Virus record (IMG/VR): IMGVR_UViG_3300021085_000013
Location: 1 to 64,000 of that record
Reading direction: 5' to 3' (one strand)
Origin: a virus
DNA length: 64,000 nucleotides
Shown: in pieces, positions 7,796 through 49,333 of the stretch
Numbering within the stretch: position 1 is the first letter of the stretch
Layout: every line of letters starts with the position of its first letter
Made by a program: the position numbers and the translations under genes
Notes under the pieces: model-generated
Databases searched by the model: none
What the model saw: the letters and a program-made list of their open reading frames with translations, nothing else
Told to the model about the DNA's origin: nothing

Positions 7796-9250
7796 CTACT
7801 TGTTAAATCTCTTGTTAATAGACTTCTTAACATCAGTTAAATCGTATAAAGGTTTCTTATCTTCAATAACAGGAGCAGCTTCATTTACTGTCTCTACTTT
7901 TTCCATAACTACAGCAACATCTCTAAGATCTCTAGTTTGCCAGAAGTTTCTTACTTGGTAAGCAGTTTCTAGTTTATGGTATTTAGATTGAGCTAAAAGA
8001 GCTGTTTTCTTGTTATCTGATAATTTAGACCATGTTTCTTTATATTCTTCTGGCATCATTTCAATAACATTAGGTTCGTTAGTTTTAACGCTATTTAATA
8101 ATGAAGAGTTCCATAATGTAAGAATTTGTCCTTCAGTTAAGAATCCTTTTCCTTCGATTGATTTTAATACTTTAGATTGATCTTCAGTATTTAATTCGTT
8201 GTATTCTGCTTTCTTAGCTTCAGAAATAAATCTAAAGAAATGAGGGTTAGTATTTTCTTTAACGGTTGCTTTTTCGATTAAAGCAGATAATTTAGAACTA
8301 ATTTCAGATTTGTAAGCATCTAGTGAATCTACTGCTTCTTCAACTTCTTCAGTTTCTTCAACTTCTTCAGTTTCTTCAACTTCTTCAGTAGCTTCAATTT
8401 CTTCTTCTACGAATTCTTCTGCATTTTCTTTATCTTCGGCATCAACGTCTTTAACTTTGAAAGTTTCACCGTCTACTGTAAATTCTGTTTCTCCGTCTGC
8501 GATTGCTTTAGCTCTTGCAGCACCGAATGCATTTCCTTCTTCAACTTCTTCAGTTTCTTCAACTTCTTCAGTTTCTTCAACTTCTTCAGCAGCCTCTTCT
8601 TCAGAAATTTCTTCGTCACCGGCATCGTCAACTGTATCTTCTAACTCGTCTTCTAACTCGTCAGATTTGTCTTCAACTTCTGCACCGTGATCTAATTCAT
8701 TATCTTCAGCATCAACAGTAGGTTCAGTAACATCTGTAGAATCGTCTTCATCTTCAATTTCTTCAACTTCTTTACCAGCTTCATCTTCTAGTAATAAGTT
8801 AGAATTAACTGTTTCTGCAACGTATTCTGCATATTCAGTAACTTTTTCTAAATTTTCTTTTAAGTATTCAATATACTTTAATAAGCCTTCATGGGTTGTT
8901 GCACCTTCATTATAAGATTCTGCTAAGTAATTAGTATAGTCTTTAATTGATTCAACACCTTCAGCAACATGCTCAGTATATGCAACGCTATTATCTAATT
9001 TCTCAGATATTTCGTTATTTGTAGTTATTGTATTATCTAAGTTTTCAGCAAGGTATGCAGAATACTCGATAGTCTTTTCTAATTTCTCAGCAAGATAGTT
9101 TGAATATTCTTTAACGCTTTCAACTTCAGACTTTACAGATTCATCACTATTTAAAGATTCCATTCCCTCTTTAATAGTTTTTATTTCGCTTGATAAATAC
9201 TGTGAATATTTATTAAAATCATCAGTACTTACGAATTTTGATTCAGCCAT
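7796..9250 (-). CDS. Possible separate scaffold protein from an internal start
   Basis: An in-frame ATG at 9250 gives a 484-residue protein beginning MAESKFVS, exactly where the protease domain ends and the coiled scaffold repeats begin. The preceding bases AAACTGAAAACAAA resemble the A-rich leaders of other genes here (for example before gp23). Nested protease/scaffold genes with internal scaffold starts are known in other phages. This one is inferred and needs protein evidence. Confidence 0.45.
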   Translation of the reverse strand: MAESKFVSTDDFNKYSQYLSSEIKTIKEGMESLNSDESVKSEVESVKEYSNYLAEKLEKTIEYSAYLAENLDNTITTNNEISEKLDNSVAYTEHVAEGVESIKDYTNYLAESYNEGATTHEGLLKYIEYLKENLEKVTEYAEYVAETVNSNLLLEDEAGKEVEEIEDEDDSTDVTEPTVDAEDNELDHGAEVEDKSDELEDELEDTVDDAGDEEISEEEAAEEVEETEEVEETEEVEEGNAFGAARAKAIADGETEFTVDGETFKVKDVDAEDKENAEEFVEEEIEATEEVEETEEVEETEEVEEAVDSLDAYKSEISSKLSALIEKATVKENTNPHFFRFISEAKKAEYNELNTEDQSKVLKSIEGKGFLTEGQILTLWNSSLLNSVKTNEPNVIEMMPEEYKETWSKLSDNKKTALLAQSKYHKLETAYQVRNFWQTRDLRDVAVVMEKVETVNEAAPVIEDKKPLYDLTDVKKSINKRFNK

Positions 9251-9844
9251 TTTGTTTTCAGTTTTATTTTCGGTTGTTAAAAGTTCTTTTGTATTTCCAA
9301 TTTCATAAATTTGAATGCTAGAATCGTTATCAAATCCGAAAGATTCGTTAACTCTTTTTAATTCAGCATTTTCAAAACCAGGATCTGCAACTAAATCATA
9401 AGTGAATAATTGCTTAATTTTAACAGTCCCGTTAGATTCAACTGTACCAGCTGCTCTAGATGAAATTTGTAAAGGAACACCAGCATCAACCAAAGCTTTA
9501 GCCTGACGACCAGCTTCAGTATCAAGTAATCTGATTTTACCTTTTACTTGTTTTGTTTCGCTATCATAGGATAATTCTTCAATAACGTGAGATACGTTTT
9601 TTAAAGATACATCAAATGTTTGTGGGTGATCTAATTCTCCTAAAAGTTTAGAAGAACCTATTTTAGATTGAAGAGCTTCAATTTGTGGAACATATTCTGA
9701 CTCAGTATAGATTCTATTATTTCTATTCTTTTTGTCAATTTCTCCAAATATACCTTCAAGGACATAAGCCCCATCACCATCTTGTTTGAATTCTAATTCA
9801 CTAGAAGATCTTTCTAGGATTAATAGATTGTTTTTTGTATTCAT
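7796..9844 (-). CDS. gp21: Prohead protease fused to scaffold core (gp21-gp22 like)
   Basis: Residues 1 to about 170 are the prohead protease that matures the head: GELDHP supplies catalytic His73, and ISSRA supplies Ser128/129, matching T4 gp21 His85 and Ser140. From about residue 200 to the end the protein is scaffold-like: five or so repeats of the type Y-x-x-Y-[LV]-A-E-x-[LV] at 225-345, then a very acidic Glu/Val/Thr region with two copies of an EEVEETEEV array, then a helical C-terminus. T4 encodes these as separate genes 21 and 22. An in-frame ATG at 9250 (residue 199) has a good A-rich start context and could give a free 484-residue scaffold. The fusion and late-type promoter motif indicate action in prohead assembly. 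Confidence 0.9.
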   Translation of the reverse strand: MNTKNNLLILERSSSELEFKQDGDGAYVLEGIFGEIDKKNRNNRIYTESEYVPQIEALQSKIGSSKLLGELDHPQTFDVSLKNVSHVIEELSYDSETKQVKGKIRLLDTEAGRQAKALVDAGVPLQISSRAAGTVESNGTVKIKQLFTYDLVADPGFENAELKRVNESFGFDNDSSIQIYEIGNTKELLTTENKTENKMAESKFVSTDDFNKYSQYLSSEIKTIKEGMESLNSDESVKSEVESVKEYSNYLAEKLEKTIEYSAYLAENLDNTITTNNEISEKLDNSVAYTEHVAEGVESIKDYTNYLAESYNEGATTHEGLLKYIEYLKENLEKVTEYAEYVAETVNSNLLLEDEAGKEVEEIEDEDDSTDVTEPTVDAEDNELDHGAEVEDKSDELEDELEDTVDDAGDEEISEEEAAEEVEETEEVEETEEVEEGNAFGAARAKAIADGETEFTVDGETFKVKDVDAEDKENAEEFVEEEIEATEEVEETEEVEETEEVEEAVDSLDAYKSEISSKLSALIEKATVKENTNPHFFRFISEAKKAEYNELNTEDQSKVLKSIEGKGFLTEGQILTLWNSSLLNSVKTNEPNVIEMMPEEYKETWSKLSDNKKTALLAQSKYHKLETAYQVRNFWQTRDLRDVAVVMEKVETVNEAAPVIEDKKPLYDLTDVKKSINKRFNK
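8335..8410. repeat. Short tandem repeat coding for EEVEETEEV
   Basis: An 18-base unit (CTTCTTCAACTTCTTCAG with slight variants) is repeated about four times on the plus strand. It encodes part of the acidic region of the scaffold. A second array lies at 8534-8600. Confidence 0.7.
8534..8600. repeat. Second copy of the acidic-region tandem repeat
   Basis: The same CTTCTTCAACTTCTTCAG-type unit occurs about three to four times, again in frame with Glu/Val/Thr codons of the scaffold. Such arrays can change length by slippage without breaking the frame. Confidence 0.7.
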
Positions 9845-10298: not shown

Positions 10299-11888
10299 TT
10301 ACATTGCCATAGGATCAACGTCCGGTTCTTCTGCGTCAATATTAGCTTGTCTTTGTTTATATGCTAAATTAGCTGCTTTATCGTCCGGTGATAATTTTAA
10401 ATATCTGTCTACTAAGAATTCCATATCAAAGTAAGGCATTTCTTCCATGGTAACTGGATCTGTTTTCATTAGAGAATCTTGCATTGTAGATATAAAGTCT
10501 AATCGTTTCTCCATGATTTCCATTTGTTTTAATTCAGCAAACATATTCTCTTCATTAAATTGAATAGCTATTTGAGTTCTGAAACCTGCATCATCTTTGA
10601 ATTCAGGAAATTTAAGACACATCTGTAGCCATAGTGGTTTTACTAAAATTTCTTGGAAAGAAGAACGTAATCTTTTAATAAATTTAGAAAACTTAATTTC
10701 ATCTCTAATCATACCATCAGCTGCAAGGTTAAAGTCACCACCACCGTCTTCATACATAAATCTATTGAATGGTATTTTAGAAACCATTTTTAATTTATCA
10801 TTAAAATATTTAAGTGCTTCTGTATCTGATAATTCGGGACCGTCTCCTCCTAAAGTTTCAATCTCTGGAGATTCTCCTTCTTTGGATGGTAACCAATATT
10901 CTTTGTTAAATTGGAGCATTGGTTTTCCATTAGTTGCCAATGTAGCTGAATCCCAATCAAAATCTACAACTTCTTTATAATTACCCATTAATTGAGCAAG
11001 AGATTGCTTAGCTCTTGTTTTAGATTTACCACCAACTGGAATAATAAACTTCATTCTATATGATGAGTTTGTAACCGCCCAGATAACTCTAGTATGTTCC
11101 ATTATTCTCATCAGGTTAAATGATCTTATAAGTCTTTCTAAGTAACTTACTCTCGAGGCAGTGGTTATTGAAGAATAAGAAAGATAGATAATCTGTGAAT
11201 CATACAGGACTCTCTCCTTAACAGGATCGTCCTTAAATTGAACCCATACTTTTTTACCATCATCTTTATTATAACCTGGCATTAGTGTAATAGGATCTAT
11301 TTCCTTAAATCCTATAATCTGATCTTGATCTGGGCTGTAAATAATTTCAAAAGAAAGATATCCGTCAATTAAGAATTTTCTAAAGAAGTACCATGCCGAT
11401 TGATCTGAATTAAATCCAAAATATTGATATAAATCTCTGTATGATTTATTTAAGTACTTTGTAACTTCTTCTGAAACATCCATTCCTATAAGTTCTGGAT
11501 TTCCAATAAAGTTCTTATTGTCATATACTATAGATTCGTCACATAGAATATCTAATATATCTTCTATTTCATCATGTGTGGAAAATCTTCTTAATTCGTC
11601 TCTTTTACCTTCATAGCCTTGGTCAAAGAAAGGAATATTTTTTCTCATGTTGGTATCTGCCATCGATAATGCGGCAAATGCTCCATACATGTTATCGTCG
11701 TCTAGTCCCATTTGATTCATTTGGCCGTAACCAAATTCATCTTCTACAGGACCTATTGCCTGAGATTGTCTTAAGACTAAATCATCATAATACATTCCGA
11801 AAGACGAGAGTCTTTTTAATGTATCACTTAAAGTGAATGATCTTTTACCAGTACTTAATGGTCCGTTTCTTTCTATAAATCCTGCCAT
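10299..11888 (-). CDS. gp20: Portal vertex protein (gp20)
   Basis: This forms the dodecameric ring through which DNA enters and leaves the head. The 529-residue chain has the T4 gp20 layout and length (T4: 524). Typical stretches are DELRRFSTHDEIEDILDILCDE near 85-105, a Y-F-F-R-K-x-L-I-D-G-Y segment near 167, and the NRFMYEDGGGDFN block near 375. It starts the run gp20, core protein, gp21-22, gp23 in the same order as in T4. Both a GTATAAT box and a late-type motif lie 20-35 bases before the start. Confidence 0.95.
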   Translation of the reverse strand: MAGFIERNGPLSTGKRSFTLSDTLKRLSSFGMYYDDLVLRQSQAIGPVEDEFGYGQMNQMGLDDDNMYGAFAALSMADTNMRKNIPFFDQGYEGKRDELRRFSTHDEIEDILDILCDESIVYDNKNFIGNPELIGMDVSEEVTKYLNKSYRDLYQYFGFNSDQSAWYFFRKFLIDGYLSFEIIYSPDQDQIIGFKEIDPITLMPGYNKDDGKKVWVQFKDDPVKERVLYDSQIIYLSYSSITTASRVSYLERLIRSFNLMRIMEHTRVIWAVTNSSYRMKFIIPVGGKSKTRAKQSLAQLMGNYKEVVDFDWDSATLATNGKPMLQFNKEYWLPSKEGESPEIETLGGDGPELSDTEALKYFNDKLKMVSKIPFNRFMYEDGGGDFNLAADGMIRDEIKFSKFIKRLRSSFQEILVKPLWLQMCLKFPEFKDDAGFRTQIAIQFNEENMFAELKQMEIMEKRLDFISTMQDSLMKTDPVTMEEMPYFDMEFLVDRYLKLSPDDKAANLAYKQRQANIDAEEPDVDPMAM

Positions 11889-35835: not shown

Positions 35836-37884
35836 TTACCAGCTAGCGGCCCATACAAATTCAAAGTTATGTTTCTTACAAAACTTTTCAATCATATCTG
35901 AAATCTTAGCTTGGGCAGCTTCGTACTTAGCGTAATCTCTTCCATCTATAATATTATAAGCACTTTCACCATATTCATCAGGATGTCTTAATTCTCTTGG
36001 CTCGTCAGTCTTATAATAAACTTTCTTTTCAGCTGTTCTAATATAAGGCATTCTTAATTCTATTCTTCTATGTGCTTTTCTTCCGCTTGCCTTTGCGATG
36101 TCATATTGCTTTTCGATTCTTGGCTTTAATCTAGTCCATTCGGCTAATATTTTATCATTAGCTTTAAAACCTGCTAAAATAGTTTTCATGTCAAATTCTA
36201 CTCCGTTTACTCTTTTGTAATCTTTGAAAACTCCAACTACATCATCCATAAATTTATCAAAGCTAGAAATAGATTGATATGATCCATGGACAATTCCCAT
36301 ACCCCATTCATCTTCTACCTTTCCAGTTGATACTTTTTTGGTTCCATTGAATAATTTTGCAAATGAATAATTAGGTCTACGAGTTGAGTTGTTAGAAGAA
36401 AACTTAAATACTTCATGTTTCCATGATTTTCCTCGAAGATCAATAGCTAAACACAAATTACCTCCATAATTCCATTCTGATCTATAAACTCTACATCTAA
36501 ATTGAATTTTTGGAAATTCCTTTTTTAAACGCTCTGCCATTTGTAAACCATTACCGAAGTTAGATTCTCTTTTGTATGCTTCTTTACATTCTTTAGATTT
36601 TCTAGCAATAGCTAAAACCTTACTTATTGTATAGTATGTTTCTGAATCGAATATTTCATCATCTGTTTCTTTATCTAAAATAACATCTTCATTAATAGAT
36701 TTTAAATGAGTCAGTTTAGTGGATGTTGATTCTGCAAATGCTTCAATATCCCATTGGATTCTTTGCATTGGATCATCACCTCTAAAGTTTTTCTCAACCC
36801 AATCAATAAGACCTGGTTCGAATTGGGCGTTTTGTGCCATATCATAGGCATTCTTCCAACCGTCGTTTGATGCAACGTCTTCTAACCATTGGTCATATTT
36901 CCTTTGAGTCCATCTTACTTTCTTAACAGCTTTCTTATGAGGACCAGCTCCTAATGTTGACTTTACAGTATTGTAGTGTTCTGGACCTGCAAATACGCCT
37001 TCTGCCCATTCTTGATCTCTTTTATTACCGTCCCAATATTTAATTTCTTTTCTGAATCTTCTTAGTGAATAATTACCACCTTCAATTTGTTTACGCTTTG
37101 TTACTTCTCCTTGTCTGTAACCTATTTCAATCTTCTTTTCTTCGGCAGTTTTAGGATCCATTTCGAAATGTAAAGATTTTACTAAATCTCCAATACCATC
37201 AAATTTACCTTCAGTAACTACTGATTCATCTAAACCTAATGATTTATTAACTAGATCTTCAATAACAGTAGAATAATCGTCCTTCAAAGCCCATTTAATT
37301 GTTTGACCTTGACTTCTTGCTTTTTTGTTTATCCATTTAAGATGTGTTGCATCAGTAAGAAACTCGGAAGCTTCTTTTGCAATTCTCTTTGGATCCTTTT
37401 TCCATTCTTCAATAGTAGTGCCAAAGTTATTACCGTATGTAGAACCATTAGTTCTTTTAAGGTTATTGATTCCACCAATCTTAATGTATATGTCATTATT
37501 AATAGGCATTGCTTCAAAGAAAACTACATCTCTTTCTTCTGGGTTGTTTTCACCAGATAATTGATCAATAGCATAAGTACTATGAACTCTCCAAGTAGGT
37601 TCGCCCTTTACATTGTATGCTGCTGAGTGCGTATCTCCACCAAATTCAGAAGCTTTTAACTTATATGCTTTAGCTTCATTGGTGGATCCGAAAGATTCAA
37701 ATGATATAATGTTTTTCATTTCGCGTTGTTTCTTTTTATTTCTCTTCTTCTTATACTCTTCTTCGGCATCTCCCTTTCCGGCTGGAATATCCCCTGATCC
37801 AACTGATGTTTCAGTTGGTAAAGAGACTTCTCCCATTCCGGCCATATCGCCAAGTGATAAGTTTTCGTTTTCGTTTAATTCCAT
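35836..37884 (-). CDS. Putative internal head cargo protein, 682 aa, with capsid-like motif
   Basis: The first 55 residues contain GMGEVSLP and GSGD (16-32), nearly identical in spacing to residues 59-75 of the major capsid protein, then a Lys-rich stretch. Met56 begins a typical capsid-targeting sequence, ISFESFGSTNE followed by A at 71. A second candidate gp21 site, ESVVTE followed by G, is at 220-226. Predicted products would be 71-225 and 226-682. The C-terminal part has no family I recognise. An internal start at Met56 (37719) is possible. It is the last gene of the cargo block, 3 bases after the 105-residue gene. Confidence 0.75.
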   Translation of the reverse strand: MELNENENLSLGDMAGMGEVSLPTETSVGSGDIPAGKGDAEEEYKKKRNKKKQREMKNIISFESFGSTNEAKAYKLKASEFGGDTHSAAYNVKGEPTWRVHSTYAIDQLSGENNPEERDVVFFEAMPINNDIYIKIGGINNLKRTNGSTYGNNFGTTIEEWKKDPKRIAKEASEFLTDATHLKWINKKARSQGQTIKWALKDDYSTVIEDLVNKSLGLDESVVTEGKFDGIGDLVKSLHFEMDPKTAEEKKIEIGYRQGEVTKRKQIEGGNYSLRRFRKEIKYWDGNKRDQEWAEGVFAGPEHYNTVKSTLGAGPHKKAVKKVRWTQRKYDQWLEDVASNDGWKNAYDMAQNAQFEPGLIDWVEKNFRGDDPMQRIQWDIEAFAESTSTKLTHLKSINEDVILDKETDDEIFDSETYYTISKVLAIARKSKECKEAYKRESNFGNGLQMAERLKKEFPKIQFRCRVYRSEWNYGGNLCLAIDLRGKSWKHEVFKFSSNNSTRRPNYSFAKLFNGTKKVSTGKVEDEWGMGIVHGSYQSISSFDKFMDDVVGVFKDYKRVNGVEFDMKTILAGFKANDKILAEWTRLKPRIEKQYDIAKASGRKAHRRIELRMPYIRTAEKKVYYKTDEPRELRHPDEYGESAYNIIDGRDYAKYEAAQAKISDMIEKFCKKHNFEFVWAASW

Positions 37885-37887
37885 ATC

Positions 37888-38205
37888 TTAATATTCAAAT
37901 GGTGGAGTTCCATAATCACCTTGTTCGATGCCATACCATACTCCTGATACTTGTAAATACCACCATCCATATTTAGTGTCGTCTACTACTTTAAATTTCT
38001 TAGGTAATTTAACAGATTTTTTTGGAGCTCTAGCAATATACTTTAAAACTGGAACACCATCATCCCATGTTTTTTTAGTAGATCTTGCTTGAACTGATTG
38101 TCCATCTGAAAACGCATCAAATGCTTTTGCATCTTCTATTTCATCTGCTAATAAATCGATAGCTGATTCATTAATGTATTGTTCAAATAATTTTACTTTT
38201 TTCAT
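37888..38205 (-). CDS. Small internal head protein candidate, 105 aa
   Basis: MKKVKLFEQYINE followed by S is one of the clearest capsid-targeting-like starts, very close to that of T4 internal protein III (MKTYQEFIAE followed by A). Removal at Glu13 would leave a 92-residue protein with basic and aromatic C-terminal beta strands (KYGWWYLQVSGVWYG). The function after cleavage is unknown; T4 internal proteins are injected with DNA and some block host defences. Confidence 0.75.
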   Translation of the reverse strand: MKKVKLFEQYINESAIDLLADEIEDAKAFDAFSDGQSVQARSTKKTWDDGVPVLKYIARAPKKSVKLPKKFKVVDDTKYGWWYLQVSGVWYGIEQGDYGTPPFEY

Positions 38206-38206
38206 T

Positions 38207-39541
38207 TTACCAAACTATGTTTTTATTATCCCATTTAGCCATTCTTTGCTTAAGCTCTAGTGCTTTACGCTTAGCATCTCTCATATACCAAGAACTTGAT
38301 GAACCGAATTTTTCTTCTTCAGTTTTCATATTAACGTATGCTGAAACATATCCTTGATAATCTGACAATATATTTGCAATATAATTGGTTAAATCTCTAG
38401 GTCTAATTTCTCTTCCTTTAGGGTCTTTTCCTATTGTTAATTCGTTATAGTTTCCTAATTCTTTTTTAGCTAAACCAGCCATTAAGAATTGGTGTGCATC
38501 TTCGATAATTTCTTTAACTTTCTTGTCTATTTTATCTGGGTTATCAGCTTTCTTCGCAAGAATATCGTTATACCTTGTTAAGTTATCCTCTTTGATTTTC
38601 TTAGGGTTTGTAAGTGCAGTAGCTCCAGATTTTGCCTCTGCTCTTGCAGATGTCTTATCATCGGTAGATAAAGAAGCTCTTAATGTGTCTAAATTAATAA
38701 TGTAACATTCGTCAGACATTTCCGCAATTCTTTTAATGTTACCTAATCCCGTTCCACTATATTGGTTGTGTGATTTGTTAACACCGACAGTATCTTTAGA
38801 TCCAGGGTATTTACCCATGTTCTTAAGTCTTCTTGTGTTTTTCTTACCACCTATTGTGTCGCTGTTTCTATTCCATATTGAATCGTTCTGAAACATTTCA
38901 TTTTTTCCATTAGAAACAGCTAATAAACAATTTCCAGGAATCATTTCAACATATCTTCCGGAAGAAGGAGCATATTCATTTTCTTTTTCATTTCTAGAAA
39001 TCCAAAATACAATTACGTTTCCGAATGTTTTTGCTTTCTTATAAACTTCAACTGGGTTGCTATTAGAAATTATCATATCATCGGTAACTTTATCTAGTGC
39101 TACTTTAGCAAGACCGTATATACCTTTAATTAATTCCTTACCACCTTTTTTGATGTCTATTAATCCTCTTAACTTGGAAGAAGCTAGAGCTTCATTAAGT
39201 TCTAAAGATTCAGTTGCTCTGTATTTTGCAAATTTACCCTTTTTAATTGTTTTAACTAATTCAGCTTCGCTATCGTCAATATTGCCATATACATCATTAT
39301 GTGTTGCTGCGTTTACTATTTCACCAGCATCACCAATAAAATAAGTTCCTCCTGCATATTCGTCTCCATCCATATCTAGATCAAAACCACCGGCATCTAA
39401 TGAATTTTTAGAAATTGTGAATTCTTTTCCGTCTGCTTTTGAAAGAGCAGCTGCTAATTTTTTTGCTATTTTAGCAGTATCTTTCTGCTTCATAACCTTT
39501 GCTTCATTGATAAAATTATCGAAGTTAGTATATAGTTTCAT
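38207..39541 (-). CDS. Putative two-module internal head protein, 444 aa
   Basis: The N-terminus NFDNFINE followed by A (site after Glu13) is a strong capsid-targeting match. Residues 14-117 form a compact domain with a Gly/Asp-rich beta region (GGFDLDMDGDEYAGGTYF). It ends in ESLELNE followed by A, a second possible gp21 site at 117. Residues 118-444 form a larger basic domain with a WISRNEKENEYAPSSGRYVEM segment; I do not recognise it. The N-terminal layout resembles that of the AAA+ gene. A late-type promoter motif lies 25 bases upstream. Confidence 0.75.
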   Translation of the reverse strand: MKLYTNFDNFINEAKVMKQKDTAKIAKKLAAALSKADGKEFTISKNSLDAGGFDLDMDGDEYAGGTYFIGDAGEIVNAATHNDVYGNIDDSEAELVKTIKKGKFAKYRATESLELNEALASSKLRGLIDIKKGGKELIKGIYGLAKVALDKVTDDMIISNSNPVEVYKKAKTFGNVIVFWISRNEKENEYAPSSGRYVEMIPGNCLLAVSNGKNEMFQNDSIWNRNSDTIGGKKNTRRLKNMGKYPGSKDTVGVNKSHNQYSGTGLGNIKRIAEMSDECYIINLDTLRASLSTDDKTSARAEAKSGATALTNPKKIKEDNLTRYNDILAKKADNPDKIDKKVKEIIEDAHQFLMAGLAKKELGNYNELTIGKDPKGREIRPRDLTNYIANILSDYQGYVSAYVNMKTEEEKFGSSSSWYMRDAKRKALELKQRMAKWDNKNIVW

Positions 39542-39575: not shown

Positions 39576-42500
39576 TTAATGTAAGGAATCATGTGCTAAT
39601 TCATTAGCTAAGTCTGGATTATCATCTGTGAAATCTGATAATTCTTCGTCAGTCATTTCTTTTCCATTAGAATATTCACCATAACTAAAGAATGCATCTG
39701 TGAAATCTGGATAATCTTTCATATCAACATCTTCCATTTCTAATGAACTAATATCTACTTTCTTTCCTTTAAATTTAATATAATTAGCTTCGTTAATAAA
39801 AGATTCTAATGTTAAACTAACAACTGGTTTAATTCCAGTTAATATTCTTTTTCCAAATTTAGAAAGACCAATTCCATTTTCACTTACTGTAAAGTATTTA
39901 GAATTTCTTCTCATCCATCTTTTATTATCGATTGATTTTTCTTTTAGAATATTATTGAATTCTTCTTCTGTTAATACACCATCCGCTAATGCCTCGATCA
40001 TTGCGTTTCTGACTTTAGCAGTTCTACCTGAAGTTTGTGCAGGATGATTATCGGTATATCTTCTTTTTATTTGAATTTTAGATTCTCTAAGACCCGGTTT
40101 CATTACGTTTAATTCCCACCACTGTTCTAATTGGTGATAAATATTTGCACCCATGTTTGAAATCATGAAGTCAATTACATCATCATAATTGTCTTTTTCA
40201 TCTTGATAAAAACCAGGAGTATCGATATATTCTTTACCCATTATCTTTCTAACTGCTCTTTCTGGCATAGCATCGATTTCTTTTAAAAATTCTTCGAAAT
40301 CTTCATCGTTTTTAAAACCCTTAGCTTCAATAACCATTGATTCCATTAGGCCAATAGCAATCTCTCCAACTTCTCTATCGCCGCCGTCAACATATCTTTT
40401 GTTAAGTATTGCAAATTTAAAACCATCTGCTTTTATCGTATACATTGGCATCATACTATCACTATAGTCGTATTTGTATTTACCTGCTTTTAATTCTTTA
40501 CCGATTGCAAAGAAATCTTTAGCTTTACCTACTAAATCTGCAAGATTATCTAAGTGGTCACCAGCGTCGTCCTTTTCATTAACTAATGATTCATAAACTC
40601 CTTTTTCAATGTTCTTGATTAAGAGTTTAGCACCCTTCTTGTCAAGTTCATTTTGAATAAAGTCCATCATTTCGTTGGGATCTTCAGCATCTATACCAAA
40701 TTCAGATGCTAAGTTTTGATATGCATCAAATTCCATATTAGAAATAGTGTCTTCTAAGTCTGCATACACATCTTCATTAACTGCTGATTCTACCATTACT
40801 AGCCCTATATCCTTATATGCTATTTCATGCTCTCCACCGTCTTGATCTAGTGCAAATACTGATTTATCATGCCACATTGCAGCATTGTCATCGTTATTAG
40901 AATCAGGATTATAAATGATATATTCTTTTCCGTTTCCGGTTTGAATCATTGCATCATCTGCATCTCCTAATTTTTTTAATAATGACTTTTTAGTATACCT
41001 TTCTTCAACAGCTTCACCTGACGTATATTCAAAATCATTATATAGTGCCTTTAACCATTCTAAAAACTCTGGAGTTTTCTTCATTACTTTCTTATGTCCG
41101 TATTCTTTAAAGAATTCTTTCTGAAAAGTATCAAATGATTTGTGATTACCTATCATTTGGTGAATGTCAGACATAACACCCTCACTGATAACTAATTTTA
41201 CATCTTTGTTTTTACCAGCTACTGCATCATCTAGTTCATTTGTAAGAGCTTTCTTTTTTGCTGTTAAATCTATTAGCTGCTGTCTAGTTGCTGCTTTCTC
41301 ATCACTTCCATCTTCCGCAGCGATGTATATCTTTACAATATCTTTCATCTTATTAACTGTTTCTCCAAATTCCTTTGAAATCTTGTTAATAGATCTAGCT
41401 TCTAATATATTAGATTCTTCAATGTATTCTCCTAATTCAGGATCGTCCCATCCATTAGGATCGGCTAATACCGATTGTAAATCTTCTCTTGAACCTGTCA
41501 TTTCAACTTCTGGCCAATTGCCACCAGGGCCGTTCATTGTTAAAACTTTCATTTTAACATTATATTTCTTTAAAAGCTTTTTGAGTGTTTTTGATTTAGG
41601 ATCTATTGCATCCATTACTACAGTAGCTTCATTTAAATTTTCGTCTAGCTTATCAAAGAATCCACCATGTTCACTTTGTAAATCTTCACCATACTTGTCG
41701 TCCCATATTTTAGCTAATTCATCTTTAGTAATTTTACCTTTATATTTTCCCATGATTTCAACATAGACACTACCATATTCATATTCAAAATCTTCACCAT
41801 AAGAAAAATCCCATGCCTTTTCAACATCTTTAATTGTAAGCTTTTTGGCTTCAGTAACCTTTGATTCATACCATCCGTTTTCGTAATCGTCATCATCTTC
41901 ATAATCATCATACTCAGGTTCTTGATACCATGATTGATTTGGATCAGATTCTGCTTCTTCAGTAAAGTCATGTCTTTTCCAATTAAATCTTGGATCTTCA
42001 ACTAATGCAGGGAATAATGTCTTTTTCTTTTTATCTTTGGTCTTTATTTTACCGAATGCTAAATCAATACCAAGTTGTCTTAATTCTTTAAATGAACCTT
42101 TCATTGTTTTAACATCTTCTTCAGTATATCCATTCATTGTAGCAACAAGATCATAATAATCCATTCCACCAAATTCACCATATCCTTCATAATCCTTTTC
42201 CGTCCACTTGTTACCCATATTATCATACATAAATACTGTAATCATGTTCTGTCTTTCAGAACCTATTTGTGTGTTTGTATCGGATGTAAGCCATGAAAAT
42301 TGACCTTCAACTATCATCTGTTCATGTAACAATTGAGCACCAGTCGTTACAATGTTTAAATAGCTTTCAGGAATTCCATTTACAAAGTTATGTAATTCTG
42401 GTTCGAAATCTGGCATACCACATGCATATCTTGGATATGTTGCTCCTTCTGTATTTACAAGAATACTCATTCCATAATACTCTCCAAGCTCACCTGATTC

Positions 42501-42794
42501 AGTGTTACAATATAATACAAATACCTGTGGCACTTGAACTTTAAAGTTAGATTGTAATGGATATTCGTTATGACATCCTAATTCTTTAGTAGTGTATACG
42601 TCTAAGGAATGTAATTCTTTATCATATTTAGTTAATTCTCTATATGGAATAGAAGCTCTTTGGTTAAATAGATCTCCCCAATAAGAAGGCTTTCTCAAGG
42701 AATATTTCCCAGAAACCTTTTTGTATACTTTATATAAATCAACGTTTTCGTTCATTGAATTTACAAAGCTTTCGAATGTTTTTTTAGTGCTCAT
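39576..42794 (-). CDS. Putative internal head polyprotein, 1072 aa
   Basis: The chain begins TFESFVNSMNE, a capsid-targeting-like start. Eight candidate gp21 sites follow, with the Glu at residues 315 (ESKVTE), 389 (ENLNE), 465 (ESNILE), 538 (LVISE), 674 (ESAVNE), 740 (ESLVNE), 823 (ESMVIE) and 1002 (ESFINE); the next residue is Ala, Gly, Asp or Lys. They divide the protein into modules of about 300, 74, 76, 73, 136, 66, 83, 179 and 70 residues. Composition changes at the borders: an Asp/Glu/Tyr run ends just before 310, and residues 912-985 form a basic helical domain. No module is a family I can name. A further possible site is QMIVE-G near 160. Confidence 0.8.
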   Translation of the reverse strand: MSTKKTFESFVNSMNENVDLYKVYKKVSGKYSLRKPSYWGDLFNQRASIPYRELTKYDKELHSLDVYTTKELGCHNEYPLQSNFKVQVPQVFVLYCNTESGELGEYYGMSILVNTEGATYPRYACGMPDFEPELHNFVNGIPESYLNIVTTGAQLLHEQMIVEGQFSWLTSDTNTQIGSERQNMITVFMYDNMGNKWTEKDYEGYGEFGGMDYYDLVATMNGYTEEDVKTMKGSFKELRQLGIDLAFGKIKTKDKKKKTLFPALVEDPRFNWKRHDFTEEAESDPNQSWYQEPEYDDYEDDDDYENGWYESKVTEAKKLTIKDVEKAWDFSYGEDFEYEYGSVYVEIMGKYKGKITKDELAKIWDDKYGEDLQSEHGGFFDKLDENLNEATVVMDAIDPKSKTLKKLLKKYNVKMKVLTMNGPGGNWPEVEMTGSREDLQSVLADPNGWDDPELGEYIEESNILEARSINKISKEFGETVNKMKDIVKIYIAAEDGSDEKAATRQQLIDLTAKKKALTNELDDAVAGKNKDVKLVISEGVMSDIHQMIGNHKSFDTFQKEFFKEYGHKKVMKKTPEFLEWLKALYNDFEYTSGEAVEERYTKKSLLKKLGDADDAMIQTGNGKEYIIYNPDSNNDDNAAMWHDKSVFALDQDGGEHEIAYKDIGLVMVESAVNEDVYADLEDTISNMEFDAYQNLASEFGIDAEDPNEMMDFIQNELDKKGAKLLIKNIEKGVYESLVNEKDDAGDHLDNLADLVGKAKDFFAIGKELKAGKYKYDYSDSMMPMYTIKADGFKFAILNKRYVDGGDREVGEIAIGLMESMVIEAKGFKNDEDFEEFLKEIDAMPERAVRKIMGKEYIDTPGFYQDEKDNYDDVIDFMISNMGANIYHQLEQWWELNVMKPGLRESKIQIKRRYTDNHPAQTSGRTAKVRNAMIEALADGVLTEEEFNNILKEKSIDNKRWMRRNSKYFTVSENGIGLSKFGKRILTGIKPVVSLTLESFINEANYIKFKGKKVDISSLEMEDVDMKDYPDFTDAFFSYGEYSNGKEMTDEELSDFTDDNPDLANELAHDSLH

Positions 42795-42814: not shown

Positions 42815-43894
42815 TTAAACTCGGTTAGGCTTTATTTTATATTTAAATTTACCTTGTGTAATAGAATATATTTGTAATTTGCTAGTTTTTCCAGGTAATT
42901 TCTTGTAATAGTGAAAAGCTACTATTTCATGATCTTTAGACTCTATAAAAAGGAATGGAGTAGGTATATCTCCTACTGCTGAAATTACATCGTCTTGTAT
43001 TTCAGTAAATGTTCTAACGGAAGGCTCAGTCTCTATTATACTTTTAATTTTTTCTGCAGTTTTAGAGTCACTTAGCTTTCCTAATTCTACGTCATTAAAT
43101 TTAATTACTAATGCGCCGTTATCTTTATCTCCAGGACCTATTTTAAAATCTCTTTCACTAGAAGAAAGGGCCTGAATATCTGTCTTAGTTAAATTTTGAA
43201 TATGCTTAAATCTTTTTCCACCTACAGTTCCCCATTCATTTATCCAACCTCCACCGGCAGCCATATCTTTACCATCTCCGTCCGGGTTGATTTCTTCAAT
43301 ATTATATTTTACTGCGTCATATAATGCCGTTAACTTCGGTACATAAGTACTATTAATTCCCTGGTGTTTTGCACCTGTTCTCCAATTTTGTAACATGCCC
43401 TTTGACATTTGAGCTTCTTTTAACTCACATTTACCAAGGGGTGGTTTAATTGGTGACCACCTTTCATTATATAATTCTAAGTCAGTATCGGCCGCACCTC
43501 CACCTATTTTTATATTTTCTACAATATACGCTAGCATTATTTCTCCAGCACCAATTCCATTATCGTCTCTTCCAATATTAAACAATTCGTTTGCTTCGCT
43601 TTTATTTAACATTAAATATTGAAAAACTACTCCGAATGTATCGTCATCCATTTTAGAAAGCCATAACCTACCATCAGGTTGTTGTTTAACATCCTGTGTT
43701 GAAGTAAACTTAACACCTTGCCATGGACACTTATTCTTTTTAAATGTTCTATTAATTGAATTAAATAAATTCTGTTGGGCAGCCTTACTGCCGGTTGATG
43801 CAACTCCAATATAGGATTCTATAATTAATGCTTCATTTTCAGCATTGGTTTTTGCAGCACTATGTAGTGCTCTTTCAAAATCGTACCTATCCAT
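42815..43894 (-). CDS. Possible PD-(D/E)XK nuclease in the cargo block, 359 aa
   Basis: Residues about 115-175 contain GAGEIMLAYIV, GGGAADTDLEL and GKCELKEAQ. The order Glu, Asp-x-Asp, then Glu-Leu-Lys fits a restriction-endonuclease-like active site. An ALIIE followed by S near residue 26 is a possible gp21 site, and the N-terminus lacks the clear capsid-targeting pattern. It overlaps the ligase-adenylyltransferase gene by 8 bases. If real and packaged, it could act on host DNA or foreign DNA soon after entry. Fold assignment is by eye. Confidence 0.5.
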   Translation of the reverse strand: MDRYDFERALHSAAKTNAENEALIIESYIGVASTGSKAAQQNLFNSINRTFKKNKCPWQGVKFTSTQDVKQQPDGRLWLSKMDDDTFGVVFQYLMLNKSEANELFNIGRDDNGIGAGEIMLAYIVENIKIGGGAADTDLELYNERWSPIKPPLGKCELKEAQMSKGMLQNWRTGAKHQGINSTYVPKLTALYDAVKYNIEEINPDGDGKDMAAGGGWINEWGTVGGKRFKHIQNLTKTDIQALSSSERDFKIGPGDKDNGALVIKFNDVELGKLSDSKTAEKIKSIIETEPSVRTFTEIQDDVISAVGDIPTPFLFIESKDHEIVAFHYYKKLPGKTSKLQIYSITQGKFKYKIKPNRV

Positions 43895-45758
43895 TGTTTT
43901 CTAAAAATTGTTTAAATGTTAATAATGATTCAGTGACTTCATTTGATTCTGAAGCACCTACTGAATCTTCTAATTTTTTCTTAAGTTCACCATACATTTT
44001 ATGTAAGGCCTTTGGTGTTGTAGACTTAAATAGTTTTTCATCTCCGTCTAACATTGCATTTCTAACCTGAGTCGCTGAAATATTATTGTCTGTTCTTGGA
44101 ATTTCAAATAATCCAAAATCACTCCTAACTCCAAGATCTTCTCTATAAGAATCTTTATTTACTTGGAATCCGTAAGTTTTCATTCTATCGCTTCCTGTTC
44201 CCCATAATACGGGTTCATAAGTTGGTCTCATTGCATTGAACATTGTATCAATACCTCCGGTTGGAATTACAAAGATTTCTTTTAAGAATGGATATTGTTT
44301 TTGAACCGCCTTAAACATATCTAATTGTGTCTTCTCATCATAAGGTCTTTTAAATGCATCTTCCTTTTTCTTATTCTTTGCTTTTACTAATAAAACAACC
44401 ACAGGATATCCATTTTCTTTGTGTATAGTTTCTAATACTTTAGCATGTCCAAGTGTAAATGGTTGGAATCTACCAACAAACATATTTACTAATTCTCCTC
44501 CTTGTTCAGGATGATCTACTTTAAGTGCTTCATTTAAATTAACACTTGTCTTTACTTTATTATGTAATATGAAATTATTAAAGTCGTATATGGAATTTTC
44601 ATCGGTATTCTCTACAAATACTTTCTTATCTATAGTTTCTACTATTTGATTTAAATGCTCTAACATTTCTGCATTTATGATATCGCTTTCCTTGCTTCTC
44701 TTTTTTCTAAAAGAACCTAAAGTTATTTTAAATAATTCTGCAAGTATTTCGTTTTCAACATAAGAAAGAGTGGTCTCGTTCTTAATGTATTTAGTATTTA
44801 GTTTAAAGGAATCTGAATCTGCAAAATCAGCTGATTCAAAGTTAACACCAATAAACTTAGCAGAGTGTTCTTTAACATACGTATTAAACATCACTGACAT
44901 TAATTCAATATATCTCCAGTCTGCTGTTTCTTCATTTAGTTGAATGTCTTTCATTTCAAATGTAGAAATAAATTCAATAAGACCAGCAATAGTAATTTGA
45001 TACATGTGGCTTGATCTCTTATTTTCACTAACAGTTCTTGTAAAATCTTCTAATTTAAAAGATCTAGATTTTTTCTCATCAATAAAAGAAACTATTAATC
45101 CGTCAATTTCTACTTCAAAGTCTTCATTTAACGTAGGAGAAATTGCATTTGGATTAAATGTCTTAATCATCTTTTGGGTAAAAGGTAATCTTGCATCTGT
45201 ATTTGGATCATAATCAAATGCTTCAGAAAACTCCTTATCTGACATAGATAGAACAGTTATTAATTCTTCTTTTTGCATTTGAGATAACATACCATCAAAT
45301 ACAATGCTAGGTCCTTGAACCTCTAATATCTTTGACCATTTATTTAATATAACTGGATCGCTAATTGTTTTTTTAATCTTACCTGATTCATTCATAGTTT
45401 GAATGTGAGTAAGTATTAAATTGTTTTTAGGCAGTTTAGTATATTTATATTCTGACACGTTTAATTCAGGTAAATATTCAAAACCAAATTTCCAATCATG
45501 TGGCATTTGTTCCTTTATACTAGGATCTAGACTTTGGATGTGCTTGACACCTGTTTCATATAAACCTACTATTGTTCTGTCTATCATGTTCATTCTAGAA
45601 TCTCCAGATTTGTAATATTCAAATTTAGTCTGGTTTCTTCTAACGTGAAATGAAGCTCCTTGTATTTTTTCAGTTACTAGAACCCTGCTATTCAACATAT
45701 CTTGAAATGCATTGATATTAGTTTCCTGAAATACTTGTCTTAGTTTTTTAAGTGCCAT
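43887..45758 (-). CDS. Ligase-like domain fused to NMN-adenylyltransferase-like domain
   Basis: Residues 1 to about 400 look like a covalent nucleotidyltransferase (RNA/DNA ligase fold): VTEKIQG gives a possible motif I lysine at 31 (KIQG rather than KxDG), with FGFEYL near 92 as motif III, EIDGLIVSF near 215 as motif IV, and RSFKLED as a motif V candidate. Residues 411-623 hold MFVGRFQPFTLGH and ISATQVR, the two signatures of NMN/cytidylyl transferases. Between them lies VNLNE followed by A at 410-411, a candidate gp21 site. The C-terminus TFKQFLENNG resembles a capsid-targeting sequence. I infer two packaged enzymes linked to adenylate or NAD chemistry. Confidence 0.78.
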   Translation of the reverse strand: MALKKLRQVFQETNINAFQDMLNSRVLVTEKIQGASFHVRRNQTKFEYYKSGDSRMNMIDRTIVGLYETGVKHIQSLDPSIKEQMPHDWKFGFEYLPELNVSEYKYTKLPKNNLILTHIQTMNESGKIKKTISDPVILNKWSKILEVQGPSIVFDGMLSQMQKEELITVLSMSDKEFSEAFDYDPNTDARLPFTQKMIKTFNPNAISPTLNEDFEVEIDGLIVSFIDEKKSRSFKLEDFTRTVSENKRSSHMYQITIAGLIEFISTFEMKDIQLNEETADWRYIELMSVMFNTYVKEHSAKFIGVNFESADFADSDSFKLNTKYIKNETTLSYVENEILAELFKITLGSFRKKRSKESDIINAEMLEHLNQIVETIDKKVFVENTDENSIYDFNNFILHNKVKTSVNLNEALKVDHPEQGGELVNMFVGRFQPFTLGHAKVLETIHKENGYPVVVLLVKAKNKKKEDAFKRPYDEKTQLDMFKAVQKQYPFLKEIFVIPTGGIDTMFNAMRPTYEPVLWGTGSDRMKTYGFQVNKDSYREDLGVRSDFGLFEIPRTDNNISATQVRNAMLDGDEKLFKSTTPKALHKMYGELKKKLEDSVGASESNEVTESLLTFKQFLENNG

Positions 45759-45768
45759 ATTATATTAT

Positions 45769-47139
45769 TTATCTTCCGTACTTTATGATTCCCATCAGCT
45801 GATTGATAGCAGCAAAAGTACCTGTTAGTTTCATAGTCTTTCCTTTATATACAAAAACTATTCCTTCAGTTGGTATGATAGATTCTACTCCTCCAATTCT
45901 ATCTAATCTCTCTAGTTCTTTCATTACCTTTTCGATCTGAGTAACGCTTCCATCTTTTTTGATCTTTTCAGATTCTGATCTAATTTGATTATGTAGTCTT
46001 TGCATCTCTTTGTCTGGATTTGCAGCTACAAAATTAGAAGCATTCATAAGAATTATAGACCCTAGTTCTAAAAATAAATCTTCAAACGGTCTAATGTTTT
46101 CTTTATATTTCTTTTTAACATCTTCTTTGTCAAATTTCTTAACAGAAGCAGCTTCATCTTTTCCTATCTCCTTTGCAAGTGATCTCATATTTAAAGACTT
46201 TTTATCTCCATAAGCCCATCTTAATAATAAACCTTCCTTATAGTCTTGTTGTAAATCGGGGAAATTTGCATCTATTGTTTCTCTCCACCACATTTCATGA
46301 TATCTAGAAACTTCGTCACCGTCTGTTAAGTTATAACGATCTCTTAATTTTTCAATCTGCTTTATAAATTTAGCTTGATTTTTATCAAAATTAATATCTT
46401 TACCTAGTTTTAAAATCTGAGGAGGAATTATTGTAAATGTCTTTTGAACATCGGCATCTACTTCCTTTAAAGCTTTGACTAATTCTCCTGCTATTTTTCT
46501 AGATCCTGTAATATTACCATTCCCATCAGTTTCTTGAATATCGTGAAATTGAAGAACATCTCTTTCGTAATAGATTACATTTGGGTTTTTAGAATAGATT
46601 AATTCTATATTTATAAAATCTTTACCGTCATTAAATATGGACTGATCTTTAATTTTTGGAAGAGCTTCATTTAGATCTTTAGCTGCAAACACGTATGTTT
46701 CTCGCACTAAAGGTACCTCATGCTTTTCAAACATTTCTATAATACCGTCTAAATCAACGGGACTAATTAATTGACCTTTATTTCTAGAAAACATCGTAAC
46801 TCCGTTTTTTACGGTTGCTAATAGATTTTGACCGTCTGTTTTTTCAGTGGCTACCTCTTCAAAGTTTAATTCTCCTTGAAGACCAGACGTTACGATCTTT
46901 TTAAAATCTGCGAATGTTAAATCTTTTTCATCGAAAGGATGAGACATGTGACCAGCTGCACCGCCTTCTAAGATTAATTCTTCTTTAAGTGTATTGTATT
47001 TTTCAACGATATATTCATCAAATGATAAAACTTTACTCTTATTTTCACTCATATAATGTGCAACATATTCCTCTCTGGTCATGCCATGTGCATCTGCGTG
47101 ATGTTGAATAAAATCTACGAAGTTGTTATTTAGTTCCAT
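45769..47139 (-). CDS. Nucleotidyltransferase (ligase-fold) protein with targeting-like leader
   Basis: The leader has SFDEYIVE at 39-46 and then ELILE followed by GG at 58-59, which looks like a gp21 site. The mature part starts GGAAGHMSHPF and contains EKTDGQN with the ligase motif I lysine at 100 (KTDG). FINIELIY near 175 fits motif III, and EGIVFVYKGKTMKLTG near the C-terminus fits motifs IV and V. I recall similar uncharacterised proteins in marine T4-like phages. The reaction (DNA or RNA joining, or capping) cannot be told from sequence. It is 10 bases upstream of the ligase-adenylyltransferase gene. Confidence 0.78.
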   Translation of the reverse strand: MELNNNFVDFIQHHADAHGMTREEYVAHYMSENKSKVLSFDEYIVEKYNTLKEELILEGGAAGHMSHPFDEKDLTFADFKKIVTSGLQGELNFEEVATEKTDGQNLLATVKNGVTMFSRNKGQLISPVDLDGIIEMFEKHEVPLVRETYVFAAKDLNEALPKIKDQSIFNDGKDFINIELIYSKNPNVIYYERDVLQFHDIQETDGNGNITGSRKIAGELVKALKEVDADVQKTFTIIPPQILKLGKDINFDKNQAKFIKQIEKLRDRYNLTDGDEVSRYHEMWWRETIDANFPDLQQDYKEGLLLRWAYGDKKSLNMRSLAKEIGKDEAASVKKFDKEDVKKKYKENIRPFEDLFLELGSIILMNASNFVAANPDKEMQRLHNQIRSESEKIKKDGSVTQIEKVMKELERLDRIGGVESIIPTEGIVFVYKGKTMKLTGTFAAINQLMGIIKYGR

Positions 47140-47206: not shown

Positions 47207-49333
47207 TTATAAATATCTATCGATAAATTCTTCTTTGCTACCAACAAATGATCTAGTCTTTGGGCCAAAAAGAACAATTTCAGCACCTTCTGATTTAAGC
47301 CAATCTGCGACTTTTTGAGCTTTTTTCTTATCAGCTGATAACCATACTGTGTCAAATTCAGAACCGTGAGACCTTTGCATTACAATACCTCCTTTTTCAT
47401 TTGTAAATTTAAACTTATCTCCAAGAGCAACACTTACTTTAATATTTTTATCAAAATTCTTTTTATGATTCTTAAAAGAATATGCTAAAGCACCTGAGTA
47501 ACTTTTAGTGTCAGTTGTAAATTCATCTAAAGATGTAGTAGTACCTTCATAAATATTTGATTCAAATGCTGGAACTAATCCAGTTTCTCCGTAGATATCT
47601 GCCATCATCCATTTTTTAGAACCTTCATCCCATAAATAAACGAATTCTGCACCACCTTCGTAATTTGCATCTTTAATATATTTGTTAATATTCTTAACAT
47701 TACCTTTCATCAGATTAACATCTCCGCCATAGAAATTAATTTTCTTAACGTCTTTATCTAAACCTGAATTATCTCCATTTTTAAGAACAAAATCTACATT
47801 TTTACCACTTTTAAAGGTTGATTTAATAATAGGCAACATGTTTTCAGGATATGAATCATAGTGAGTATATACTGAAGTAATATTTCCTTTCTTGTCTATT
47901 TTACCAAATTGACCTCTAGTTCCTTCATTAATTACATAATTGATTACTTCGTTAAATTTAGATTCTTTTAAAGAAATTTCTTCTTCAGTTAATTGAAACT
48001 TAACTGATTCTTCTACTGCGTTAAATCCTGCTAATAATTTTTCAGCAAGTTTAGATTCACCAATAGATTCTAAATATAGAGCAGTGCCTTCAGCAACTCC
48101 AATACCTGACCATCCGGCAGCATTTGAAATTCTAGAATAATACTCATCTAATATCTGTGATATTTTCTTTGCTCCTACTATAATAGCTTGTTTACCAAGA
48201 GTTAAAGGATTAACAGTAACACTTCCTAATCTTCCTTTGATAATTTTTTCAGTAGCTGTTCTTTCTCTATGGAAATTAGCATCAGTTAATGCTTCAGCAT
48301 AAATATATTTAATAGCTCCTAAGTGAGAAATTTTATCAGCTGTTAAGCTTCCTAGTTCTGCAAATATTTTATTGTATTGAGTTAATACTTTCTTTGCATC
48401 TCTTTTATATTTAATATCTAAGGCCTCATTCATTAATGATTCTCCTAATCCCCAGTAATTTGCGTAATCGTATTCAACTGGGAATATACCTAAATCACCT
48501 TCATCACCTTCTTCACTTTTAACAATTTTAGCAAGATAGTAATCTCCCTTTGCAGTATCTTCATATCCGTATGAATCTGCATCTGATCCCATTTCTTTTT
48601 TAAATTGTTTTGATATCTTTCTCCAATTATCGATAGCGATTATTTCAACTTCACTTCCAATTGAATTTTCAGTAGTATCTCCTACTTTAAATTTAGCTTT
48701 TTCAGTAACTAAAGATTCTGAAAATTCTTCAATATGTTCCATATCGATTTCATCTTCTCCCTTTAATTCTTTTTGTACTTCTTTAGACTTTACTAATTTT
48801 GAAAGATCTTTCATAGTGATTTCTCCATCAATGAAGTCAGCTAGTATATAGTATTGATTAGCAGAAAGTCCTTCACTGTCTCTAAAATCACCAATTTCTT
48901 CAATTGCTGCTTTAGTAACGGTCTTAGCTTCAGTAATCACTGATTCGCTTAATGAATTTCTTAGACCACAGTGTACGCATTCTACCGTTCCGTCCTTGTC
49001 AATTTGCTTATATAAATGTCCTTTTTTATTAGTACATTTTGGTTCGTCTGATTCAGTAACTTCTTCTGATGCAGTAACCTCTTCTACCTCTACTTCTATT
49101 TCAGCGATTTCTTCTTCTGAAACATCTCCAAATATTTTTGAGATAATTGATTCTTTCTGATCTTCTTCTAAACCTTCGAAAGAAGTTAATCCTAATTCAT
49201 CTAGAATAGCAGCTATTTTACCAACTGATTCTTGTCTTTTTAAATTGTTTTCTTCTCTAAGTTTACTAACAGATTCCTGTTTTCTAATCTCTGTAAACGA
49301 TTTAAATGAAGAAATTTTATTAACTTTTGCCAT
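47207..49333 (-). CDS. Putative internal head polyprotein with zinc-ribbon module, 708 aa
   Basis: The start SSFKSFTE (site after Glu15) resembles a capsid-targeting sequence. Candidate gp21 sites have the Glu at 135 (ESVITE-A), 211 (ESLVTE-K), 303 (ESLMNE-A), 470 (YVINE-G) and 596 (ESNIYE-G), giving modules of 120, 76, 92, 167, 126 and 112 residues. The first has a C-x5-H-x12-C-x2-C zinc-ribbon-like motif near 103-125. The 471-596 module contains RGQFGKID, then VYTHYDSYPE, a pattern known in phage and plasmid proteins of unknown function. A late-type motif lies 33 bases upstream; this is the first gene of the cargo block. Confidence 0.8.
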   Translation of the reverse strand: MAKVNKISSFKSFTEIRKQESVSKLREENNLKRQESVGKIAAILDELGLTSFEGLEEDQKESIISKIFGDVSEEEIAEIEVEVEEVTASEEVTESDEPKCTNKKGHLYKQIDKDGTVECVHCGLRNSLSESVITEAKTVTKAAIEEIGDFRDSEGLSANQYYILADFIDGEITMKDLSKLVKSKEVQKELKGEDEIDMEHIEEFSESLVTEKAKFKVGDTTENSIGSEVEIIAIDNWRKISKQFKKEMGSDADSYGYEDTAKGDYYLAKIVKSEEGDEGDLGIFPVEYDYANYWGLGESLMNEALDIKYKRDAKKVLTQYNKIFAELGSLTADKISHLGAIKYIYAEALTDANFHRERTATEKIIKGRLGSVTVNPLTLGKQAIIVGAKKISQILDEYYSRISNAAGWSGIGVAEGTALYLESIGESKLAEKLLAGFNAVEESVKFQLTEEEISLKESKFNEVINYVINEGTRGQFGKIDKKGNITSVYTHYDSYPENMLPIIKSTFKSGKNVDFVLKNGDNSGLDKDVKKINFYGGDVNLMKGNVKNINKYIKDANYEGGAEFVYLWDEGSKKWMMADIYGETGLVPAFESNIYEGTTTSLDEFTTDTKSYSGALAYSFKNHKKNFDKNIKVSVALGDKFKFTNEKGGIVMQRSHGSEFDTVWLSADKKKAQKVADWLKSEGAEIVLFGPKTRSFVGSKEEFIDRYL

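Follow-up and report, generated by a model that had tools for sequence, protein, structure and literature searches.

A modular reading frame of a marine T4-like phage with the features of a cassette polyprotein of internal head proteins

Does a long open reading frame (ORF) of a T4-like phage encode one protein, or a chain of small proteins to be separated inside the phage head? The question is raised by an ORF of 1072 amino acids (39576–42794, minus strand) in a stretch of 64,000 bases, hereafter the window, which is part of a 116,899-base IMG/VR virus record. The plus-strand frame across the same positions contains many stops. An earlier note had read the ORF as a polyprotein cut by the prohead protease at eight internal sites. 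Our analysis makes it probable that the ORF encodes a modular polyprotein of internal head proteins, which would be targeted to the prohead, cut by an S77 protease, likely injected, and subject to the exchange of cassettes.

The phage of the record is T4-like and marine. It encodes a Gp23 major capsid protein (6213–7640, minus strand; match at 2e-43) and a T4-type portal protein (10299–11888; match at 2e-67). The capsid protein matches 1405 records, every one of them less than 60% identical, and its top-ranked matches come from uncultured huge phages, Lak phages, Sphingomonas phage PAU, and Tenacibaculum phages; our guess is that the host belongs to the Bacteroidota. T4-type internal head proteins that bear a capsid targeting sequence (CTS) are associated with an S77 prohead protease, and the phage encodes one. 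The protein at 7796–9844 (minus strand), already taken for the prohead protease in the earlier note, matches Pfam Peptidase_S77 at 7.2e-10, which exceeds the family cut-off, and phrog_207 at 2.2e-38. Its S77 domain is N-terminal and is followed by a long tail, acidic and scaffold-like; this protein is the presumed cutter.

In T4, an N-terminal sequence of 10 residues directs internal proteins into the prohead. Its positions 4 and 7 are important for targeting and its positions 8 and 10 for processing, which an Asp at position 10 blocks; the gp21 protease cleaves after L/I-x-E (passages on internal proteins in PMC9026906). The first 16 residues of the ORF (MSTKKTFESFVNSMNE; 42747–42794, minus strand) resemble such a targeting sequence: the stretch FESFVNSMNE holds two aromatic residues three positions apart and a hydrophobic-x-Glu, with the Glu nine residues past the first aromatic. 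In the leader of T4 IPIII, the Glu lies six residues past the first aromatic. A likely leader site follows residue 16 (SMNE/N, the slash marking the putative cut), where the homologue in locus L127 reads FESFINGSINE/K. N-termini of the same T4-like type occur in several other proteins of the record (FEQYINE, FDNFINE, YDQYLNE, and others). One is a small protein at 37888–38205 (minus strand; FEQYINE), probably a single internal protein; another is the protein at 38207–39541 (minus strand; FDNFINE), which has one inner linker at which relatives gain modules.

Within the ORF, eight Glu residues (315, 389, 465, 538, 674, 740, 823, and 1002) had been proposed as cut sites. The cuts that we placed from sequence fall exactly at these eight residues; their number, however, was incomplete, as relatives add junctions after residues 16, 598 (GEAVEE/R), and 904 (KPGLRE/S), all three overlooked in the earlier note. 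The ORF would then consist of a short targeting-like leader and 11 modules, of 299, 74, 76, 73, 60, 76, 66, 83, 81, 98, and 70 residues. Six of the eight originally proposed junctions carry the strict linker motif E-[SN]-x-h-x-E, the other two being 389 (DENLNE) and 538 (KLVISE); junction 1002 is also leader-like (LESFINE/A). The strict motif is found six times in the ORF against a mean of 0.32 in shuffled sequences, none of 1000 shuffles reaching six, and 26 times in the whole record against about 9 expected (121 ORFs called over 116,899 bases). Only one other ORF of the 121 contains six strict motifs (shuffle mean 0.30; 0 of 1000 shuffles). It lies at 47207–49333 (minus strand), encodes 708 amino acids, has relatives of its own, and appears to be a second linker-rich polyprotein. 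The bare motif [ILV]xE, on the other hand, occurs 25 times in the 1072-residue ORF against a shuffle mean of 19.3, and 15 of the 25 lie away from junctions, so that the bare hydrophobic-x-Glu rule is uninformative when used alone.

Related loci were collected by scanning IMG/VR with three proteins of the record: the ORF itself (loci L001–L027, at least 15 of them essentially one virus), the protein at 47207–49333 (L033–L074), and a conserved neighbour at 45769–47139 (minus strand) with a leader-like N-terminal part (L076–L154 and L057, the best 80 of at least 562 relatives in IMG/VR). To place module boundaries independently of the motif, the modules were compared as profiles with the ORFs of these loci. 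Contexts were kept when the match started at model position 3 or earlier with at least 8 residues upstream, and when the upstream sequence was dissimilar to that of the window and to the other kept contexts. This yielded 79 other upstream contexts, not fully independent in descent, for nine modules (m2–m6 and m8–m11) and none for m1 and m7. In 76 of the 79, an [LIVM]xE is located between −3 and +1 relative to the homology-defined module start, which would fit the hydrophobic-x-Glu specificity presumed for this protease by analogy with T4; with positions drawn at random from these proteins (2000 draws), on average 11.5 of 79 fitted and never more than 22. The three contexts without it have a Met start (L131), VSYNE (L091), and SATNE (L121). 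In 49 contexts, E-[SN]-x-x-x-E is absent at the junction, and hydrophobic-x-Glu is still present in 47 of them, in junctions as varied as NLVFE, FEIVE, TLLE, RVDE, and KVEE. This indicates that hydrophobic-x-Glu itself is conserved, as expected for a protease site. Position P3 is often Val, since I, L, or V fits 74 of the 79 contexts and I or L, the T4 rule, just 37. A cruder test compared the 265 starts and 282 ends of BLAST matches with the positions of hydrophobic-x-Glu. A fraction of 0.72 of the starts lay within 8 residues of one (0.35 by chance, at most 0.42 in 300 draws), as did 0.67 of the ends (0.36 by chance), with no excess at exact starts (0.02 against 0.03 by chance).

All modules are encoded on the minus strand. 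The first and longest, m1 (residues 17–315; 41850–42746), has no novel upstream context and is truncated and fused to another module in L025. It is followed by m2 (316–389; 41628–41849; 4 other contexts), m3 (390–465; 41400–41627; 17), m4 (466–538; 41181–41399; 7), m5 (539–598; 41001–41180; 6), and m6 (599–674; 40773–41000; 9). The next, m7 (675–740; 40575–40772), has no novel context, and other modules take its place in L010. The C-terminal part comprises m8 (741–823; 40326–40574; 5 other contexts), m9 (824–904; 40083–40325; 4), m10 (905–1002; 39789–40082; 25), and m11 (1003–1072; 39579–39788; 2). Some of these modules occur behind leaders in relatives. The module m10 follows the N-terminal leaders MKKFEEFIGE (L094), MKFEDFLNE (L088), MDFNNFLNE (L141), and MATFEDFLSE (L154), while m4 is found shortly after FDKYLNE (L121) and m5 shortly after FKSFLLE (L109); in another L109 protein, m6 follows the leader-like MKKLLTFESFVNE, but some 70 residues away from the N-terminus. 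Among the 14 contexts close to an N-terminus, roughly 8 have, by eye, a leader with an aromatic pair, and the rest have short leaders without the pair. Linkers and leaders thus look equivalent, and such chains may have originated by the fusion of neighbouring internal-protein genes, whose leaders would have turned into linkers.

As is typical of the units of protease-processed polyproteins, the modules are separable: beside their 79 other contexts, they are gained, lost, replaced, and transferred between polyprotein genes among relatives. For instance, m3 is found in relatives of 39576–42794, 47207–49333, and 38207–39541, and L066 contains a tandem pair of nearly identical m3-like modules. The same virus has further proteins of the polyprotein kind, the clearest at 47207–49333 and another, in relatives, at 38207–39541. 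A linker-bearing protein is also encoded at 35836–37884 (minus strand), with four strict linkers in its L024 relative. Four module gains could be followed between genomes that are 94–99% identical, all of them in frame. In the homologue of 38207–39541, L024 has 483 bases more than L019 (161 residues, two modules) at 98–99% identity, the aligned flanks overlapping by 13 bases, and 198 bases (66 residues, with an overlap of 15 bases) separate L009 from L010, whose flanks are about 94–97% identical. In the homologue of 47207–49333, these two loci (95–99%) show two further differences, one of 204 bases (68 residues, overlap of 34 bases) and one of 186 bases (62 residues, no overlap). Across the collected loci, 208 ORFs have at least two strict linkers, or 70 once near copies are removed; these 70, which were chosen for having at least two, contain 241 strict linkers against 14.7 in shuffles. 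Splitting 67 of the 70 (one from L029 and two from L075 being omitted) gave 390 modules in 137 families. Two or more members are present in 54 of these families, 45 of which have at least two different left neighbours; as the modules here, like those of the m3 comparison, were split by motif patterns, these counts are an illustration rather than a proof. Taken at the level of sequence, the comparative tests favour what the earlier note had proposed, namely a chain of separate small proteins with prohead-protease-type junctions behind one targeting-like N-terminus.

Among 216 distinct linkers, codon choice in the DNA is specific to the position: V3 is GTA in 93 of 104 cases (background 0.38), V4 is GTT in 130 of 146 (background 0.56), and T5 is ACT in 73 of 79 (background 0.49), which suggests that linkers probably double as recombination joints. 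Such codon usage would also be expected of an uncut multidomain protein of the polyvalent kind, whose modules stay joined and whose linkers act as hinges and recombination joints; the polyvalent proteins of phages described in parts of PMC5512222 have between 2 and 15 domains, and some are packaged uncut. We nevertheless consider an uncut protein unlikely, because DNA homology alone is insufficient to explain hydrophobic-x-Glu where the common linker is missing, T4-type leaders precede several of these modules in relatives, and an S77 protease is encoded by the phage. Catalogued polyvalent domains (MPTase, ART, PBECR, ParB) were not detected by Pfam in the ORF or in 10 polyproteins of relatives. 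An inverted repeat, TCAGTA-GT-TACTGA, is present in the commonest linker DNA, GAATCAGTAGTTACTGAA (26 of 216 linkers); the idea that this repeat is a recombinase site was set aside, as it is absent from many linkers.

Structure prediction gave two weak AlphaFold models (mean pLDDT 46.1 and 46.0). In the first, which did not cover m1, the better islands correspond to m2–m6 and part of m10. Segments below 50 at 450–468, 526–539, 589–598, and 669–690 match junctions 465, 538, 598, and 674, and two others (893–923 and 984–1072) flank m10. Junctions 740 and 823 fall in a low-confidence stretch, and 10-residue means of 60–67 leave no clear gap at 389. In the second model, m10 alone is resolved, with low-confidence flanks. 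Neither model places a junction within a confidently folded region, which is a weak test at a mean pLDDT of about 46. Foldseek with the whole model returned no match at E ≤ 0.001, and KH-like and Hfq-like resemblances (best E 0.092) were not used. The ORF had no match among 50,697 phage records; searches of Pfam, PHROG, and PDB sequences assigned no function to any module, and no Pfam family exceeded its cut-off in the ORF or in the same 10 polyproteins of relatives. The PHROG matches at E 0.001, which are phrog_5922 (m3 and relatives), phrog_1987 (47207–49333 and relatives), and phrog_6663 (L133), carry no functional assignment.

The mechanism that we propose is as follows. The first 16 residues, acting as a T4-type capsid targeting sequence, would carry the whole chain into the prohead core, where the S77 prohead protease would cut after hydrophobic-x-Glu at 11 sites as the prohead matures. 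About 11 small proteins would be released, one of about 300 residues and ten of 60–98. Some or all of the freed modules would remain with the DNA in the head and be injected together with it; in the host, they would most likely counter defences at an early stage. The linkers would meanwhile serve as short shared DNA for the insertion, loss, and transfer of cassettes among the polyprotein genes of one virus group. The chain might instead be a core or scaffold protein cut for disposal, comparable to T4 gp22, gp67, and gp68, so that its pieces would leave the prohead and none would be cargo; according to passages of PMC9026906, T4 core proteins are indeed cut by gp21 into several fragments, most of which are removed. 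This seems quite improbable, given that fast whole-module turnover and the many module families suit cargo better and that a separate acidic scaffold-like tail is already fused to the protease, although neither point is decisive. Finally, an artefact of chance or composition in a Glu- and Ser-rich sequence is barely credible, for while the bare hydrophobic-x-Glu is short and frequent, the shuffle test, the boundary test, and the clean module gains all contradict it.

A polyprotein of injected cargo has partial parallels in known systems. Like the gp21-processed T4 proteins IPI, IPII, IPIII, and Alt, the modules are small and diverse and come with the leader pattern, the hydrophobic-x-Glu rule, and an S77 protease; unlike those proteins, each of which has its own gene and leader and yields one mature protein, about 11 modules stand in a row after a single leader and are exchanged as cassettes. 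Mature T4 IPI* is a compact protein of 76 residues that inhibits the GmrSD restriction enzyme (section of PMC3012670), and IPIII is required to infect E. coli ECOR17 (section of PMC9391042). The size and turnover of the modules fit an arms race. T-even internal-protein diversity was reportedly described by Repoila and others in 1994. T4 gp22, gp67, and gp68 resemble the proposed polyprotein in being single chains with several prohead protease cuts. Polyvalent proteins of phages and conjugative elements, such as P1 DdrB, share many domains per chain, a predicted delivery with DNA, and mosaic evolution, but in the source passages they are packaged uncut or self-processed, and no separation at repeated prohead-protease linkers is described. 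In giant phage SPN3US, gp245 cuts ejection proteins of the head after a short motif ending in Glu, and some of their propeptides at several sites; in the excerpts concerned, however, what is lost is an N-terminal propeptide in front of a single mature protein, and no chain of mature proteins is described. A described phage internal-head polyprotein was not found in the full-text literature, a coverage that leaves out most subscription journals and bioRxiv, and by term count the word "polyprotein" is absent from PMC10684548, on the shuffling of phage protein fragments. Within the literature searched, the component parts seem to be already known and the cassette polyprotein not.

More broadly, we lean slightly toward the view that a group of marine T4-like phages has several cassette arrays, each with one leader and many injected effectors, in which a linker of about 20 bases is both protease site and DNA joint. 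With both functions in one such linker, a new in-frame effector would automatically be targeted and released. If this is true, many injected proteins could be loaded through one targeting signal and freed by the existing maturation protease, which would explain the quick diversification of head cargo in such phages, and cassette swapping may allow fast renewal of the proteins injected into bacteria. The 137 module families would then be a catalogue of small candidate anti-defence proteins, the linker rule would offer a simple way to find further such proteins, and the role of T4-type internal proteins would become testable one module at a time.

Several minor observations concern other parts of the record and its relatives. 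Near the start of the 35836–37884 protein (about 37839, minus strand) stands GMGEVSLPTETSVGSGD; the N-terminal arm of the major capsid protein (6213–7640; about 7466, minus strand) contains a closely similar stretch, GMGDVSLPSATADGSGD, and a pattern for it has 31 distinct matches in the collected loci. Such a stretch might bind the capsid or act as a second targeting signal. Two larger proteins are interspersed with the polyprotein genes. The one at 45769–47139 has relatives in LR756500 and Microcystis phage Mel-JY01. Its neighbour at 43887–45758 has a cytidylyltransferase-like domain (8.4e-09) and a leader-like C-terminal end (TFKQFLENNG). In both, motifs like those of nucleotidyltransferases or ligases can be made out by eye, and these proteins, too, may be cargo of the head. 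A small module of 47207–49333 has CxxC motifs that look by eye like a zinc ribbon; it stands alone as a small ORF in two other contigs of about 156 kb (L073:9956–10102 and L074:9956–10102). Beyond the window, a protein of 1613 residues (64803–69644) has three strict linkers against a mean of 0.46, three being reached in 17 of 1000 shuffles, and leader-like starts are found in 95624–96526, 96582–97064, 97399–97938, and 108222–109175.
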